Positions 37,893-57,598 of a DNA stretch of 64,000 nucleotides are shown here, one piece after another. The first letter of the stretch is position 1. Each line of letters opens with the position of its first letter. This DNA is from a virus: positions 1-64,000 of the IMG/VR virus record IMGVR_UViG_3300009034_000020. One strand, given 5' to 3'. The notes below the pieces were generated by a model that searched no databases, was not told where the DNA came from, and was given only the letters and a program-made list of their open reading frames with translations. A program made the position numbers and the translations under genes.

Positions 37893-38147
37893 ATGGCAGA
37901 AACGCGAATCGCGTTCATCCTGTTGGGAATAAACGAGGATAGGGCTCTGGAGATCCTAGCGACTTCTAGAGTCCTCGACCGGGACCTGCTCGACCGGGCG
38001 GCTAACCTATTCCGGTGTCGCATAGCCAGCGAGTTCCACATCCTGCGGGTCCTTGACAACACGAACGGGATGCTCGGCAGCGCTTTGCTGCCAGTGGAGA
38101 TTACAGTCACCGCTACCGTCTCGGAAGAGGCGCGCGGGGACCTCTAG
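37893..38147 (+). CDS. hypothetical protein (84 aa)
   Basis: Not recognised. GGAGGTGCATC precedes the ATG. Helical, with DRALEILATSRVLDRDLLDRAA; the last 25 residues are beta-like. Its last base is the first base of the tmRNA-like RNA. Confidence 0.75.
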   Translation: MAETRIAFILLGINEDRALEILATSRVLDRDLLDRAANLFRCRIASEFHILRVLDNTNGMLGSALLPVEITVTATVSEEARGDL

Positions 38148-38227
38148 GGGGCGAAGGTTCGACCGGCAGTAGAAAGCCCCACGCTAGGGACTCTGTTGGG
38201 ACGGGGGTTCGAGTCCCCCCGCCTCCA
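38147..38227 (+). ncRNA. mini tmRNA-like RNA: tRNA-like domain without mRNA domain
   Basis: The 5' end GGGGGCG pairs with CGCCTCC (38220-38226) as a seven-pair acceptor stem with a G3:U70 pair and discriminator A (38227): the alanine identity set of tmRNA. Next to the 5' arm comes GGTTCGACCGG, the tmRNA D-loop-like signature. Next to the 3' arm comes GGGACGGGGGTTCGAGTCCCCC, i.e. the tmRNA T-arm with its leading GGAC. Instead of about 300 nt of pseudoknots and tag frame there are only about 35 nt between, able to form a CCCA/TGGG helix. No normal anticodon arm can be drawn. The 3' tail is not encoded as CCA. It could be a reduced tmRNA, a decoy substrate or a relic. Confidence 0.65.
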
Positions 38228-38235
38228 CTGATAAC

Positions 38236-38274: not shown

Positions 38275-38362
38275 GGAGGGGTGGCCAAATGGCAAGGCGC
38301 TGGCTTCGAAACCCAGTGAGGCGCTACGCGCTATGGGAGTTCGAATCTCTCCCCCTCCGCCA
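38275..38362 (+). tRNA. tRNA-Ser (CGA)
   Basis: Acceptor GGAGGGG/CCCCTCC, D-stem GCC/GGC, anticodon loop TTCGAAA, long variable arm GGCGC-TAC-GCGCT, T-loop TTCGAAT, discriminator G and encoded CCA. The pair below the anticodon loop is a C.C mismatch. The long variable arm confirms serine. Confidence 0.92.
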
Positions 38363-38365
38363 CAA

Positions 38366-38456
38366 GGCTGGGCCGCGGAGATTGGCGAGCCGCGCCGGCC
38401 CGTAAAGTCGGTGGCCCTTGAGGTCTGAGCATGTTCGAATCATGCCCCAGCCACCA
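38366..38456 (+). tRNA. tRNA-Tyr (GTA), C33
   Basis: Acceptor GGCTGGG/CCCAGCC, D-stem GCGG/CCGC, anticodon stem CCGGC/GTCGG, loop CCGTAAA, long variable arm as in bacterial tRNA-Tyr, T-arm GCATG/CATGC, A73 and encoded CCA. Position 33 is C instead of the near-universal U, and position 8 is also C. Confidence 0.88.
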
Positions 38457-38457
38457 T

Positions 38458-38531
38458 GCGCGACGAGTCGGACGGTAAGACATTTGCGTGCCATGCAAAG
38501 GGAAGGAGTTCAATTCTCCTGTCGCGCACCA
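38458..38531 (+). tRNA. tRNA-Gly (GCC)
   Basis: Acceptor GCGCGAC/GTCGCGC, short D-stem GTC/GAC, anticodon stem TTTGC/GCAAA with loop GTGCCAT (U33 normal), T-loop TTCAATT, A73 and encoded CCA. Position 8 is G. Confidence 0.92.
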
Positions 38532-38532
38532 T

Positions 38533-38608
38533 AGGGGATTAGCTCAGTTGGTAGAGCGCTTGGTCTACACCCAAGATGTCGGGGGTTCAAGTCCCTCATC
38601 CCCCACCA
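38533..38608 (+). tRNA. tRNA-Val (TAC), C33
   Basis: D-stem GCTC/GAGC, anticodon stem CTTGG/CCAAG with loop TCTACAC (anticodon TAC, C33), T-stem GGGGG/CCCTC, A73 and encoded CCA. The first acceptor pair is an A.C mismatch (AGGGGAT against ATCCCCC). Confidence 0.88.
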
Positions 38609-38609
38609 T

Positions 38610-38684
38610 GGAGGCGGTAGTGTAACGGCAGCACGGTAGGTTGTGGCCCTGCTAGTTCGAGTTCGAATCTCGACCGTCACCCCA
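38610..38684 (+). tRNA. tRNA-His (GTG)
   Basis: Anticodon stem GTAGG/CCTGC, loop TTGTGGC. G at 38610 faces C73 (38681), the extra G-1:C73 pair that defines histidine tRNAs. The acceptor GAGGCGG/CCGTCAC has one A.A mismatch and one G.T pair. CCA is encoded. Confidence 0.9.
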
Positions 38685-38685
38685 T

Positions 38686-38760
38686 GGGGGACTAGCTCAC
38701 CTGGGAGAGCACCGGTCCTGCAAACCGGAGAACAGAGTTCAAGTCTCTGGTCCTCCACCA
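38686..38760 (+). tRNA. tRNA-Ala (TGC), C33
   Basis: Acceptor GGGGGAC/GTCCTCC contains the G3:U70 alanine identity pair; D-stem GCTC/GAGC; anticodon stem CCGGT/ACCGG; loop CCTGCAA (C33); A73 and encoded CCA. Confidence 0.9.
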
Positions 38761-38787: not shown

Positions 38788-38816
38788 TTGACAACCGGCG
38801 CCCGAGGTGCTACTAT
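38788..38816 (+). promoter_or_regulatory. rightward promoter P5
   Basis: TTGACA (38788-38793) - 17 bases - TACTAT (38811-38816), directly behind the tRNA cluster. Confidence 0.8.
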
Positions 38817-51123: not shown

Positions 51124-51671
51124 TGCCTAGAGATGCAGGTGGTGGAAGCCCTCTATCTAACTTGGCCGCACGTCGTCGCATGATCCAGAAGACGCGCGAG
51201 AGCCTATTCGGTCAGGGCGAGCGTGGCGTTGAGCCCGTACAACGCCCTATCCCCGGTCGCGTACCGGCGGAGCCCAAGAAGGGAGCCCCCGCGCCCGTAG
51301 CCGGCGAGGAGGAAGGGATTACCGACGAGCAGCGCCAGGAGATGATTCGTGAGACCATGACGACCATGGCCAAGATGCAGGCGGGTGGTCGCCCAACGAT
51401 GCCGCAGAAGCAGTACGAGCCGCAGGCACCAGGACAAGCTCCGATGGTCCCGCGCCTCCAGGAATGGGGTGCTGAGAAGCTCTCTCCCGAGATGCAATTC
51501 TACCGGATTGCCGGCAGGAACCCGTCTCCGCGTGAGCTGGCGGTCTTCAGCTCCCGGATTGAACTAGAACGGGAGCTTGGGCGTGTGCCCACTCGCTCCG
51601 AGCTGAAGGCGTACATCGCCCGTGGAGTCCCGATGAGCCCGGCGCATCCACGCGCCTTTGAGGCAGACTAA
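51123..51671 (+). CDS. hypothetical head-region protein (182 aa)
   Basis: Not recognised. Basic and Pro-rich first 110 residues, then FYRIAGRNPSPRELAVFSSRIELERELGR, a helical segment. Coupled to the 57-aa protein and to the giant protein. Confidence 0.75.
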   Translation: MPRDAGGGSPLSNLAARRRMIQKTRESLFGQGERGVEPVQRPIPGRVPAEPKKGAPAPVAGEEEGITDEQRQEMIRETMTTMAKMQAGGRPTMPQKQYEPQAPGQAPMVPRLQEWGAEKLSPEMQFYRIAGRNPSPRELAVFSSRIELERELGRVPTRSELKAYIARGVPMSPAHPRAFEAD

Positions 51672-54600
51672 TGGGCAGTCCTTGGGACGTAATCAAGGGA
51701 GGTGCTCAGAAACTGGGCGACGTTGTTGAAGATGTCGCCCTATTCCCCGTCAAGGCTTCGACGAAGATCTGGCAGCATACAGGCTGGCTCTTCGGAGTTG
51801 AACCCGGCTTCCTGCCTAAAGAGGAAGACATCAAGATACAGGCAGAGGCTGCCTTGGAGGCCAAGTCGCCAGAGCAGGCCCGTGAGATCATCAACTCCTA
51901 TATCGGCCACGAGTCTGGTGACGCTGCTATTGTGCGGATGATGCAGCGGCAGGGGCTCCTAGAGCGCACGCTGTTCTCTACAGAACCCGAGGACGCCTAC
52001 CTATCTATAGACCCCTTCAGCAACACAGGCCGGACCTTGTTCGCCTCGGGAGCGCTGGGAGATCAGTACGGCGGCATTGACCCCTGGATGTTGTCAGATA
52101 CAACCTTGCAGGGGCTGATGGAGGAGAACCCCCGCATGATGTGGTTGTACATGCGGGAGAAGGATCCTCTTGCTATGATGCCCGTTGTCGCCGAGACAGA
52201 CATGGAGAAGGTCGGGCAGGGCCAGTCTGGCAAGTGGTACGACTCCATCTTCGACCTTGGAGGCAGGATCCTCGGTGGTGGCAAGGACATCGGTATGCGC
52301 ATTATCATGGTCCCCGAGCGGTTCGAGGAGATGGCCGGCTGGTACTATTACAACGACATCCCCGATGCACACATGCGCCTCCAGATGGCCCACCAGATGT
52401 ACGAGTACAACCTCAACTTCTGGGACTGGGACAAGACACACGAGGCCGGCGCCCGCAATGCCATGGACGAGATCACGGCTAGGGGCCTGCGTGGCGAGGA
52501 AGCCGCGGAGGAGCTGGCAAAGTACATGGCGACAGACAACATGGGCCTGGCCGGCTCGGTAACAGATCTCGTCGGTAAGATCCTCTACGATCCTTTGTGG
52601 CTGGTACCCGTTGGGAAGGTTGCCCAGTTGGGGGTAGGTATGCCGCTGCGTGCAGCGACAGGCGCCCCGAAGATCTCGCGGCTTCTTCGCTTCTTCGCTC
52701 CGGCTACGCGCCGGGCGATGAAGGACGCCCCGAGGGGGACCTACACCTGGAAGAAGATCTACGAGATGGACGCCCTCACCCATGCAGACTTCCGGGCAGC
52801 GAGTGCTGGGAAGGGGGCGCTCGCTTTCCTCGCCGAACGAGACCCCGGAGCCTTCGGCCGGCTGGTCGCCCGCCAGATGCAGTACAAGATCTACCCACAC
52901 ATGGACGATATTGCGCGTGACCTCGGTGTGGGTGGGAAGATGATGGATGACCTGCTCCGCACTTTCCAGACAGGTAAGCTCCAGGGCTGGGTGAAGCAGG
53001 GTATCCCCGACCTATTCGACGAGCCTACAGAGGCTATAGCGAACTTCTCTCGTCGTGCCTGTTCCCAAGGCGAGTTCACCATGGGCGTGAACCAGAAGCT
53101 GAGCGACATCGCAGAGAGCCCCTTCTGGTCCGCCTTCAATCGCTACGACGAGATCGCTTCAGAAATCGGCGAGCATGTCACTGCTCCTGGGGTACTGAGT
53201 GCTGGGACCCGAACCACGATACGGAAGTTGGCCGATGACGTTGTGCGCCTGGCGGCGCAGGGCGAGAGGCCCAGCCCGACTCTCCAGCGGCTAGGGCAGA
53301 ACCTCCATGAGGCTGCGCGGACTGGCAATAAGGTTGCTATCCGACAGCACTCCGATGAGCTACTTTCGACAGTACGGCTTGCGCGCAGCACTACCATCGA
53401 GACCCATTTCCTCGACCAGGCCAACAATGCTATGGTCACTGCCCAGAAGGCGGTCTTCCGTAACTCCGCCGCGGGCCGGATCTTGGTGGATAAGTGGATG
53501 CCTATAGTCGGTGGGATGCGCCAGGCGATTGCCGGCATTACCCTGAACAACCCCGGCTTCGTCTTCCTGAACATCATGAGCAACATGGCCCGGCACATGT
53601 GGACCTTCGCTCGGCACCCAGGACTGGCCGGTCGAACCTACTCCCAGTCCCTATTCGCCGAGATGACAGCAGTCTTCCCGAGAGGCGGCAAGTACCCGGC
53701 ACTCTTCCTGCGGAGGTTGGGCGGGCATCCGGGCCTGACGCCACGTCGAGTAGAGCACTTCATCTCCAGCCAGACCGGTATCCATGAACTCCTCGCTCAG
53801 CGTGTCGCCCGAGGGGAGCTCGGGCCATCGGAGATGATGGAGCTCCTGGCGAAGGAATCTCAGCAGCCGATCAAGCACTTGTTTGAAGCTCCCCGCAAGG
53901 TCTTCGGCCTCAACCAGGATAAGCTCATGTTCCCCGTCTACCTGGCGGGCCGCATGGACTCTGCCGCCCGGCGTGGCGCCTTCTTCGCCTCGCTCAATGA
54001 GCAGGCCGGGCTAATGGCTGTCCCCTCGTGGGTTGGCCGCGGGCCTGGGCGTGCACTAGCCGACGACTTGGCGCGGATGGGCGTCGAGGGATCGACAGCA
54101 CGGCGTATCGAGTCCCAGCAACTTGACGATCTCCGGGCCATCATGACTGGGGAACTAGAGGTTCCCGCCGGCAAGACGGCCGAGGGGTTCTTCCTGGAGC
54201 GTGCTCTGGTACGGGCCGACCAGATCGAGCAGGGTGTAGCCACAGCAGGAGGCTTCTCCGTTACTGACGTTGCCTGGCGCTGGGCAAAGCTAGGCGAGCC
54301 GCAGGGCCTCGGGCTCCTAAGCGATGATGCTGCCCGCGCAGCCTTGCGTGACATCTGGCCGCTTGCCGACCAGCTACATGTCGAAGTTCTGGAGCCATAC
54401 CTGGCAGAGGTCATCGCTGGGAAGCGTACCCTTCGCTCCTTGAACCACATGATCGACGCGCGGGTCATGCCGTACTACGGGGAAGCAGACATCATGGCCC
54501 AGCTTAGCAACATGCACAACATGATCCGCAACCCGACCACTTACCTGGATGGCCTACGATTGAGCAATCGCGCAATCGTTGCGGAGATGGCGGATGATGC

Positions 54601-57598
54601 CCTCCATCTCCACCGGCACATGCAGCGAGTGCTTGTGGGCTGGGAAGGGAACCCCAAGAACTGGAAGCGGATCAAGGAGTTCAACCGACTCCAGGGCGAG
54701 GTTACCGCAGAGCAGGGCCGGCGCCTGACGGACATCAACGAGAGATTCTACCAGAAGGCGGCCCGCGAGGGCCTAGAGTCCGTAGAGTATACCGATGACC
54801 TTGCTCGCGCGTGGGACGAGTACTTCGAGATCAAGGACAAAGCCTACAAGGAGCTCCACAACTTCGTGCGCACGGAGACAGGAAAGGTCCTAGGAGACGA
54901 CCAGGTGCGAGTCGTTGACGAGTGGTACGACGGCCTGCGGAAGACGCACCAGCAACACCGGGCTAACATCCAGGAAGCCGCGAAGGAAGGTACCTTCGAG
55001 GCGTGGGGTAAGGCCGGTGAGAAGAACAAGATCCTCTACGAGACCAACGCGAAGCGCCGTGCTGGGATCTTCGGACATGGTGTAAACGACCCGCCTGCCG
55101 CACAGCAGATAATGGATGCTTCTGGGCCGCTGGCGAAGGAAGTTGACACGTATGCTCAGTACCTCAAGGCCGAGCTCCGGGCAGCCTTGCCTGAGCTCAA
55201 GACCGGTAAGCGCGCGCTCGCTGCCCCGCTTCGGGGGAGCGCTGCGGAGGAGATCCGCGCGAACGCCAAGCAGGTCATGAACAACTGGAAGGCGGCTAGC
55301 CAGGAGGTCGTAGGCACGGCGATGGCTAAGACCGACTTCATCATGCTCAACTACAACAACCAGTACGGCTTCGACCGCCTGTTCCAGGCGTTCATGCCCT
55401 TCTTCTTCTGGCCGACACGAGACACAATCCACTGGGCCGTCCGCGCAGCCCGCCAGCCCGGCGCCTTCGTTGGTGTGTGGCAGGCCATGTTGTGGCCGAA
55501 AGCCTACTCGGAGCAGTACGGCCTTCCCGAGCGCCTGCAATTCAACATCCCGGTCTACATGCCGGGGTTGGGCGAGGCGCTGTCGAAGACACCTATTGTC
55601 GGCGAGATGCTCAGTGACGCTAGCTTCAGCCCGCTCTACTTCATCGACCCCATCCGGCTGATGTTCCCATTCACGTCCTGGCGTGATCAGTACGACAGCC
55701 CGATGCGCCGTGACACTCCGGCTGGCCGTACACTTGACTTCATGGAGAATTGGTTCCCCATGATGTCCGTCAACCCATTCGCCAAGATCATCGGCGCTGA
55801 GACTGGGCTGCTCGACAAGGATGCCTGGTCGAGCGTGCAATTCTCCGGCGGTCCCTACGGGATCCCGCTATCGGCTACCGGCCAGGCTGCCGGCCGCTGG
55901 TTGTACGGCGGTGACCTTGATGCCATCCCCGAGGAGGAGATGTACAGCTACACCGAAAAGGGATACTTCAGCATCCCCTTCCTGGGCCGGGCCTTGAATC
56001 TTGAGCCCGACCGCTTCGACATCTACCGAGCCGAGCGTGCTACCTGGGCGCTGGCCGCAACAGACGACCTCCTACCTGGTGAGCCGCACGATGTACAGGC
56101 CAAGGCGGCCATGCTAGCCGTGCGGGACCACAAGGGCAAGGCATGGGCTACGGCTGTGCGCGCTGCGGAAGGCGAGGACTTCCTGCGCATGGCTACCAGC
56201 TACATCGGCTTCCCCTTCGGTGGATTCAAGGGGATGCAGGAGGGCGAGCGCATCTGGTACGGGCTCCGCGGAGCCTACTCCGAGTACGCTGAGGAGGGCA
56301 AGATCGACGAGTTCTTCGAGAAGTACCCCGAGTTCCAGGTGCGAACCGCAGTAGTACGCGGCCTCAGCGACCCGGATGCAAAGCGCCGGGCCATCGACAC
56401 ATCGCTCTTCTACGATGACGTAGAGAAGATCGTAGAGGCGCCTTATGCTACACAGATCGCCCGGATCCAGTCCGAGTTGACCACTCTCGCCCACCTCACA
56501 CAGACAGACTCGGTGAGAGAACAGGTTAGCTTCCTCAAGAAGGAGCTGGGGGCCATCCGAGTCGAGCAGAAGGGCCTACGCACACTAGTCGAGAACATGT
56601 ATCCATACCGAGATACCACCATCTCGCTCCGGCACCCGCCTCGGGACTACGCGCTGCGTGCTGTAGACGATGAGTGGTACGCGCTGAGCACGACGTGGTA
56701 CGAGAGCGACGGTGATGCACTAGCCGACTTCGAGAGCCTGGAAGAGGCGCAGGAAGCATGGCTCTCCCAATTCCCAGCCTATGGCACGGGTGGGAGCTAC
56801 ACCGAGAAGGACTGGCAGGATGCCTTCAACGACTACGCCAACCTCACACTGAAGTACGGGAAGGCTATGCAGTCGGCCGCTCGGGATGAAGAGTGGGAGC
56901 TCCGTGATTCACTGAAAGAAGAAATGAACGCGAAGCTAGAGGCTGCGCACGAGCGCTGGGCGCAGGGGCTCTCACGCCGCGACGTGGAGAGCTATCTCGC
57001 CTCGCGCAAGCGCCCGAAGACGCCCGAGGAGGTCGAGTTCCTGTACGCGCGCGACCTACGTGAGATGTGGATGAGCCTCGTAGCACGTGGCTCGCCGTTC
57101 ACCAGCAGAGAGAAAGGTGACATCAGCGACTTCTTCCGGTCCATGCCGGTAATCCAGAAGCACTACCCATTCAAGGCCGCGCCTCTGGAGAACTTTACCA
57201 TCGAGCAGCGGTTCGCCATGTTCCGCCGAGACGAGATCTGGGACCGCTATTACGCCTTCAGCGATCCAGGCGTGGCGGTGGACTTCATGAAGGTCGTTGG
57301 TGAGGAGCTGAACACGATCAACGAGTTCCTGGGCCTACCCCCTATGCGGCTCATCGACTACCGTCAGCCCCCGCCTGAGCTGGGCGCCGGCGACCCCTTC
57401 CTTGCGCTGATGCAAATGCGACTCGCAATCCTGCGTGAGGCTGGCCTGGAGGAGGACGCGAAGGAAGGGGAAGAGCCCATGGACGCCGAGACGCTCCAGT
57501 ACTATTCGGAGCTCCTGGCGGCAGATCCCGATGACCCTAGCCCGCTGAGCACTAGCGACGTTGACTGGCTTATAGCGCAGTGGGCCGATCCTGATTAG
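51671..57598 (+). CDS. giant virion-associated protein (1975 aa)
   Basis: A single frame of 5.9 kb between portal and scaffold. Mostly helical and charged, with four hydrophobic zones: about residues 298-330, 617-640, 1240-1260 (PFFFWPTRDTIHWAV) and 1322-1337 (YFIDPIRLMFPFTSW). The section around 1225-1340 recalls the PFxxFW region of large polyvalent phage proteins that travel with the DNA. C-terminal coiled-coil stretches lie near 1560-1800. No polymerase, protease or lysozyme motif was found. Best guess: an internal or ejected protein; a tape-measure role is unlikely at this position. Confidence 0.8.
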   Translation: MGSPWDVIKGGAQKLGDVVEDVALFPVKASTKIWQHTGWLFGVEPGFLPKEEDIKIQAEAALEAKSPEQAREIINSYIGHESGDAAIVRMMQRQGLLERTLFSTEPEDAYLSIDPFSNTGRTLFASGALGDQYGGIDPWMLSDTTLQGLMEENPRMMWLYMREKDPLAMMPVVAETDMEKVGQGQSGKWYDSIFDLGGRILGGGKDIGMRIIMVPERFEEMAGWYYYNDIPDAHMRLQMAHQMYEYNLNFWDWDKTHEAGARNAMDEITARGLRGEEAAEELAKYMATDNMGLAGSVTDLVGKILYDPLWLVPVGKVAQLGVGMPLRAATGAPKISRLLRFFAPATRRAMKDAPRGTYTWKKIYEMDALTHADFRAASAGKGALAFLAERDPGAFGRLVARQMQYKIYPHMDDIARDLGVGGKMMDDLLRTFQTGKLQGWVKQGIPDLFDEPTEAIANFSRRACSQGEFTMGVNQKLSDIAESPFWSAFNRYDEIASEIGEHVTAPGVLSAGTRTTIRKLADDVVRLAAQGERPSPTLQRLGQNLHEAARTGNKVAIRQHSDELLSTVRLARSTTIETHFLDQANNAMVTAQKAVFRNSAAGRILVDKWMPIVGGMRQAIAGITLNNPGFVFLNIMSNMARHMWTFARHPGLAGRTYSQSLFAEMTAVFPRGGKYPALFLRRLGGHPGLTPRRVEHFISSQTGIHELLAQRVARGELGPSEMMELLAKESQQPIKHLFEAPRKVFGLNQDKLMFPVYLAGRMDSAARRGAFFASLNEQAGLMAVPSWVGRGPGRALADDLARMGVEGSTARRIESQQLDDLRAIMTGELEVPAGKTAEGFFLERALVRADQIEQGVATAGGFSVTDVAWRWAKLGEPQGLGLLSDDAARAALRDIWPLADQLHVEVLEPYLAEVIAGKRTLRSLNHMIDARVMPYYGEADIMAQLSNMHNMIRNPTTYLDGLRLSNRAIVAEMADDALHLHRHMQRVLVGWEGNPKNWKRIKEFNRLQGEVTAEQGRRLTDINERFYQKAAREGLESVEYTDDLARAWDEYFEIKDKAYKELHNFVRTETGKVLGDDQVRVVDEWYDGLRKTHQQHRANIQEAAKEGTFEAWGKAGEKNKILYETNAKRRAGIFGHGVNDPPAAQQIMDASGPLAKEVDTYAQYLKAELRAALPELKTGKRALAAPLRGSAAEEIRANAKQVMNNWKAASQEVVGTAMAKTDFIMLNYNNQYGFDRLFQAFMPFFFWPTRDTIHWAVRAARQPGAFVGVWQAMLWPKAYSEQYGLPERLQFNIPVYMPGLGEALSKTPIVGEMLSDASFSPLYFIDPIRLMFPFTSWRDQYDSPMRRDTPAGRTLDFMENWFPMMSVNPFAKIIGAETGLLDKDAWSSVQFSGGPYGIPLSATGQAAGRWLYGGDLDAIPEEEMYSYTEKGYFSIPFLGRALNLEPDRFDIYRAERATWALAATDDLLPGEPHDVQAKAAMLAVRDHKGKAWATAVRAAEGEDFLRMATSYIGFPFGGFKGMQEGERIWYGLRGAYSEYAEEGKIDEFFEKYPEFQVRTAVVRGLSDPDAKRRAIDTSLFYDDVEKIVEAPYATQIARIQSELTTLAHLTQTDSVREQVSFLKKELGAIRVEQKGLRTLVENMYPYRDTTISLRHPPRDYALRAVDDEWYALSTTWYESDGDALADFESLEEAQEAWLSQFPAYGTGGSYTEKDWQDAFNDYANLTLKYGKAMQSAARDEEWELRDSLKEEMNAKLEAAHERWAQGLSRRDVESYLASRKRPKTPEEVEFLYARDLREMWMSLVARGSPFTSREKGDISDFFRSMPVIQKHYPFKAAPLENFTIEQRFAMFRRDEIWDRYYAFSDPGVAVDFMKVVGEELNTINEFLGLPPMRLIDYRQPPPELGAGDPFLALMQMRLAILREAGLEEDAKEGEEPMDAETLQYYSELLAADPDDPSPLSTSDVDWLIAQWADPD

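Follow-up and report, generated by a model that had tools for sequence, protein, structure and literature searches.

The question raised by the locus at 38147–38227 of a viral DNA stretch of 64,000 nucleotides (IMG/VR record IMGVR_UViG_3300009034_000020, positions 1 to 64,000; hereafter the window) is what kind of RNA, if any, is encoded by a sequence which resembles both ends of a tmRNA while lacking the middle. The initial annotation proposed a mini tmRNA which could be charged with alanine and act as a decoy or inhibitor of host trans-translation. To this end the sequence was compared with covariance models, its fold was predicted, relatives were sought in viral and bacterial sequences, and the resulting family was analyzed for covariation.

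Structure and surroundings of the window element

The element lies on the plus strand and reads, from its 5′ G1 to the discriminator A73, GGGGGCG-AAGG-TTCGAC-CGGCAGTAGAAAGCCCCACGCTAGGGACTCTGTTG-GGAC-GGGGGTTCGAGTCCCCC-CGCCTCC-A, comprising a tRNA-like domain and a capped connector helix. Scanning of the window with Rfam (cmscan) gave a match to the tmRNA family RF00023 at 38147–38230 with 61.8 bits (E 1e-21; gathering cut-off 47 bits), which extends over the whole length of the model, from position 1 to 374, apart from a deleted interior. This bears out the proposal that both ends match tmRNA and that the middle is missing. Of the tmRNA and tRNA covariance models, the former fitted and the latter did not, with no tRNA match (RF00005) at this place listed by ARAGORN or Rfam. 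The model of permuted two-piece tmRNAs (RF04321) reached 21.6 bits against a cut-off of 47, and the 5′ part of the element precedes its 3′ part. ARAGORN, the customary finder, called the six tRNAs downstream in the window and did not call the mini tmRNA.

The acceptor stem is formed by GGGGGCG (38147–38153, containing G3) and CGCCTCC, which contains U70 and is followed by A73 (together 38220–38227), with seven of seven pairs between 38147–38153 and 38220–38226. The G3:U70 pair and A73, the alanine identity elements noted from the outset, are thus both present. The D-loop AAGG-TTCGAC (AAGGTTCGAC; 38154–38163) has no D-stem, as is found in tmRNA, and by homology is the region contacting SmpB, with the equivalents of G19 and U17 kept. 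It is followed by the connector helix P2, the strands of which are CCGGCAG (38163–38169) and CTGTTGG (38193–38199), and by the GGAC variable-loop motif (38199–38202) containing the A334 equivalent. This directly precedes the T-arm GGGGG-TTCGAGT-CCCCC (38203–38219), a perfect stem of 5 bp.

The element is not a complete tmRNA, since just 35 nt lie between TTCGAC and GGAC and these form a helix, with neither pseudoknots nor the mRNA-like domain of the tag frame. It corresponds instead to a "TLD only" tmRNA as defined in PMC4131195, being a phage RNA of approximately 80 nt with the tRNA-like domain of tmRNA and no tag frame. The initial estimate of about 35 nt in place of these parts was correct in length. 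However, this stretch is not arbitrary filler, as it is made up of the conserved 7 bp P2 enclosing an asymmetric internal loop rich in purines and a short capped hairpin, P2b (GCCCCACGCTAGGG; 38170–38192). An asymmetric internal loop is likewise present in the connector helix of normal tmRNA, as seen in the consensus of the Rfam alignment. The mini tmRNA would appear to retain everything up to this loop, with the helix closed off at the point from which the pseudoknot ring would otherwise start. Unconstrained folding recovered the acceptor, connector stem and T-arm. The folding energy is ordinary (z −0.66) and its z-score uninformative, so the assignment of a mini tmRNA rests on comparative evidence.

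As first described, the element stands at the head of a tRNA cluster, with six tRNAs (Ser-Tyr-Gly-Val-His-Ala; ARAGORN) on the same strand at 38275–38760. Its A73 (38227) is followed by C, T and G (A-C-T-G, 38227–38230), meaning that CCA is not encoded, whereas it is encoded in all six of these tRNAs. On the other side lies an 84-aa ORF without a PHROG match (37893–38147, plus strand), the TAG stop codon of which (38145–38147) has as its last base the first G of the mini tmRNA. Just past the tRNA cluster there is a good sigma-70-like promoter (TTGACA-17-TACTAT, 10/12; 38788–38816). Elsewhere in the window, the structural region encodes a phage protein of 1975 aa (51671–57598) with no PHROG match, and the terminase is 20–30% identical to those of known phages.

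Relatives, conservation, and carriers

A first scan of viral contigs, using TTCGAC followed by a short gap and a tmRNA T-arm, picked out 26 stretches, of which many are RNAs of this kind. Further scans were conducted with a looser pattern and with acceptor and T-arm letters but no D-loop letters; the family totals are lower bounds. At least 111 distinct sequences were identified at no fewer than 145 loci, mainly on viral contigs and including named phages and one MAG contig, with a median length of 79 nt to A73. These relatives carry the same short form rather than a full tmRNA, so the window copy is no deletion artifact. The two checks named at the outset, on model fit and on relatives, thus both came down on the side of a mini tmRNA. 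Run over 1.28 Mb of sequence resampled from the window by a Markov model, the structural finder gave no matches. In a MAFFT alignment of all relatives the 5′ strand of the acceptor was misplaced, and a covariance model (R1) was therefore built from 22 relatives of equal D-loop length with the window copy left out, and it scored the window element at 60.7 bits (E 3.3e-11). The exact sequence of the window copy had no match in the viral contigs scanned, and relatives sought via the recombinase protein yielded none that were confirmed. A terminase-based search gave one contig, an 80% relative, with no tmRNA match; with just 3.5 kb of sequence ahead of its terminase gene, this contig does not reach the homologous place, as the window element lies 7.5 kb upstream. 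Outlying shapes with a long connector hairpin (RNA of 91–95 nt; L018:11594-11684, L043:5845-5939) or a very short one (66–67 nt; L051:1914-1980, L072:1661-1726) were also found, all with G3:U70.

The structure of the mini tmRNA is under selection. In an alignment of 96 members fitted to the model, 96.3% of cells are paired and 562 changes are two-sided. The covariation score is 0.646, compared to 0.128 for shuffles and at most 0.087 for slid controls, and covariation is seen in all four helices. An unfitted alignment of 22 sequences is concordant (0.632 vs. 0.149). Cells of P2 are 94% paired, with six covarying pairs, and those of P2b 87%. By direct count in 107 sequences, connector pairs 1–5 are formed in 86–97% with all pair types occurring; the connector region was in no search pattern, but sequences had been filtered for four or more pairs over eight positions.

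G3:U70 is found in all 96 aligned relatives. When the search pattern contained no acceptor letters, all 38 sequences recovered had G:U at acceptor pair 3, with pairs 4–7 variable. A73 is present in 111 of 111 distinct relatives. Where the pattern had no D-loop letters, 68 of 71 sequences keep the U17 equivalent and 69 of 71 that of G19. In cryo-EM, U17 is part of the pocket of SmpB Trp122, the G19C change prevents SmpB binding, and A334 is a base contacting SmpB (PMC8363625). As GGAC formed part of the search patterns, conservation of this motif with its A334 equivalent is not an independent test. A tag frame or bare stop hidden in the internal loop was also considered and rejected: 61 of 62 U-initial triplets there are UAA, UAG or UGA, but 28 of the 90 scored sequences have no U in the loop and GG is uncommon in either group, indicating that the stop-like triplets reflect purine composition.

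The mini tmRNA is strongly phage-biased. The first search pattern matched 54 stretches in the genomes of 84,980 species; only one of these stretches, on a contig of a Mycobacterium sp. MAG (L113), is a true member by structure. The other bacterial stretches were rejected as mini tmRNAs, being, as judged by sequence, mostly ordinary tmRNA ends, several of which (L098, L108, L123, L126, and others) look like 3′ ends. No further case was identified with R1 in 396 genomes of Actinomycetota. In 40 viral contigs checked, each with one strong match to the mini tmRNA, no full-length tmRNA was found, and no SmpB was found in 41 contigs including the window phage, with controls that worked; in both cases the contigs may be fragments. 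No tRNA gene occurs within 1.5 kb of the mini tmRNA in 88 of 111 carriers, and in all 20 cases with the nearest tRNA no more than 300 nt away, the two share a strand. Encoding of CCA mostly agrees with that of the neighboring tRNAs, the window copy being an exception.

Named carriers are the Streptomyces phages LuckySocke, GiJojo, pSt2308, Shaeky, BRock, and Alone3, all with the element within tRNA clusters and unannotated, except in GiJojo, where a hypothetical CDS is placed on top of it. This CDS (gp44, L262:994-1236) is probably a false gene. Diverged copies occur in three phages which also encode a full-length tmRNA, namely Tomas (NC_070781; mini 88030–88107, full-length 97147–97421), Riptide (PV654398; 83298–83374 and 94862–95130) and Daubenski (MN444876; 86343–86419 and 97446–97728). 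The copies of Tomas and Riptide have GAT for GAC and TGAA for GGAC.

Two further kinds of RNA were observed during this work. Pistol ribozymes (RF02679, 54.2 and 50.7 bits) accompany the mini tmRNA at a distance of 2–3 kb in two viral contigs (L019:6292-6379 and L015:5916-6012, both on the minus strand). Permuted two-piece tmRNAs are found in a viral contig (L024:1171-1574, minus strand) and in phages of Xanthomonas, Alcaligenes, and Stenotrophomonas (L132–L135), in records without such annotation at the matched place.

Proposed action and alternatives

Structure, conservation, phage bias and coexistence with full-length tmRNA are observed features; what we infer is that the window element is probably a phage TLD-only tmRNA which, following host processing, would bind host SmpB and competitively block host trans-translation during infection. 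The gene keeps the parts of tmRNA for alanylation, delivery by EF-Tu and SmpB binding, with the pseudoknots and tag reading frame seemingly exchanged for the short capped connector helix. Transcription would most likely occur together with the neighboring tRNAs, and both ends would most likely be processed like those of a tRNA, with CCA added by the host. The RNA could then bind host SmpB and, if charged, also EF-Tu and stalled ribosomes; as it supplies no template, the outcome would be a competitive block of host trans-translation. The lack of a full-length tmRNA in the 40 carrier contigs and of SmpB in the 41 indicates that the target would be the SmpB of the host.

The decoy role first suggested for the element finds support in precedent. 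An RNA of the TLD-only type resembling that of mycobacteriophage DS6A is reported in reviews citing Mao 2009 to strongly inhibit tmRNA in Escherichia coli, whether chargeable or not, perhaps by titrating SmpB (PMC4131195, PMC11915505). Since such an RNA is reported to inhibit even when uncharged, and since the SmpB-contact bases are conserved in carriers found to lack SmpB, inhibition by occupation of SmpB is the best explanation at this time. Certain observations sit less comfortably with it. The window copy has no encoded CCA though its six neighboring tRNAs do, and the inhibition described in these reviews is that of another RNA, expressed in E. coli. In addition, the full-length tmRNAs of the three Streptomyces phages would be expected to be hit by a general inhibitor too. 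Their coexistence with the mini tmRNA is not explained by simple inhibition, and replacement of the host system by that of the phage may be offered as speculation.

The main rival is that of rescue without a tag, in which the charged mini tmRNA, together with host SmpB, takes over the peptide of the stalled ribosome, which is afterwards freed through drop-off plus peptidyl-tRNA hydrolase or some other release route, thereby sparing phage proteins the degradation tag. We consider this unlikely, but every feature for charging and SmpB contact is indeed retained, and the mitochondrial tmRNAs that serve as its model are tag-less yet co-occur with SmpB, a 2025 survey suggesting that they help with incomplete mRNAs (PMC11915505). 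Tagless rescue is at variance with the activity reported for a similar TLD-only RNA in the review literature, which is inhibition, charged or not (PMC4131195), and no stop template was identified in the mini RNA.

A role outside trans-translation, as an alanine donor or a decoy of AlaRS or EF-Tu, for example in amino-acid transfer or in regulation by the uncharged RNA, appears very unlikely. The invariant G3:U70 and A73 would make the RNA a substrate of AlaRS, but the SmpB contacts U17 and G19 would be needless in such a role and are nevertheless conserved.

That the element is a decayed or misassembled full tmRNA, a functionless deletion remnant, is an idea to which the two matching ends and missing middle might lend themselves, but for the family it is already refuted, since at least 111 distinct sequences show compensatory changes in every helix and the 40 carrier contigs have no full tmRNA, and for the window copy, in which no pairing is disrupted, it is scarcely credible. 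That Tomas, Riptide, and Daubenski each carry the mini and the full tmRNA as distinct genes also argues against a mere deletion product. Equally improbable is an attachment-site remnant left by integration into host ssrA, a common integration target matched at its 3′ end only, at an annotated integrase, by the phages MCACPph1 of Moorella and MR13/MR15 of Pseudomonas, since the window copy also has the 5′ half, the D-loop, and the covarying connector helix, and heads a tRNA cluster.

Returning to inhibition through SmpB, a wider proposal can be made, more tentatively than that for the window phage itself, that TLD-only tmRNAs are a large family of phage RNAs dedicated to counteracting rescue. 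These would serve many unrelated phages to capture host SmpB and shut down trans-translation, and some Streptomyces phages would add a full tmRNA of their own in replacement of the host system. If more than 100 diverse phage sequences keep the mini tmRNA under strong structural selection, the blocking or redirecting of ribosome rescue by RNA would be a common phage strategy. As LuckySocke, GiJojo, pSt2308, Shaeky, BRock, Alone3, Tomas, Riptide, and Daubenski are cultured Streptomyces phages, the mini tmRNA is directly testable.

Comparison with known systems

Full-length tmRNAs of phages such as Bxz1, Wildcat, PegLeg, and Daubenski are likewise phage-encoded and have the same ends, and those of PegLeg and Daubenski are found among tRNA genes, but they keep the mRNA-like domain and are approximately 280–400 nt long. 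The mitochondrial tmRNAs of jakobids and oomycetes (RF02544) have kept the tRNA-like domain and lost the tag frame and pseudoknots (PMC3985003, PMC11915505). These are, however, organelle-encoded, usually permuted and in two pieces, whereas the phage mini tmRNA is one closed piece of approximately 79 nt. The plastid tmRNA of Mallomonadaceae, without CDS and of approximately 65 bp (PMC11915505), is similar in size and also has no tag frame; it differs in being organellar, and is likened to the phage RNA by description. The truncated tmRNA fragment in the crystal structure with SmpB, EF-Tu, and the ribosome (as cited in PMC8363625) binds all three without the pseudoknot ring. That fragment is man-made, in contrast to the natural phage RNA with its own conserved internal loop and cap.

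The closest known system is the TLD-only tmRNA of mycobacteriophage DS6A (tmRNA Website 11587; Phage__Mycobacterium.9; PMC4131195, PMC11915505). No report of a broad phage family of this kind was found in the literature searched, which lay largely outside subscription papers and preprints. The 2025 update of the tmRNA database lists nine "standard, no CDS" sequences among 97,179, and truncated forms were rejected during its curation (PMC11915505). The silence of ARAGORN on these RNAs and this rejection of truncated forms would account for phage TLD-only tmRNAs having been overlooked. What is new here is the size of the family, its shared architecture, the named Streptomyces phage carriers and its invisibility to ARAGORN. 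DS6A, likened to these RNAs by its published description, is a single published phage case, compared to at least 111 distinct sequences in the present work. TLD-only tmRNA was thus already known as a kind, hitherto almost singular, and the evidence presented here indicates that this kind is a widespread family of phage RNAs.
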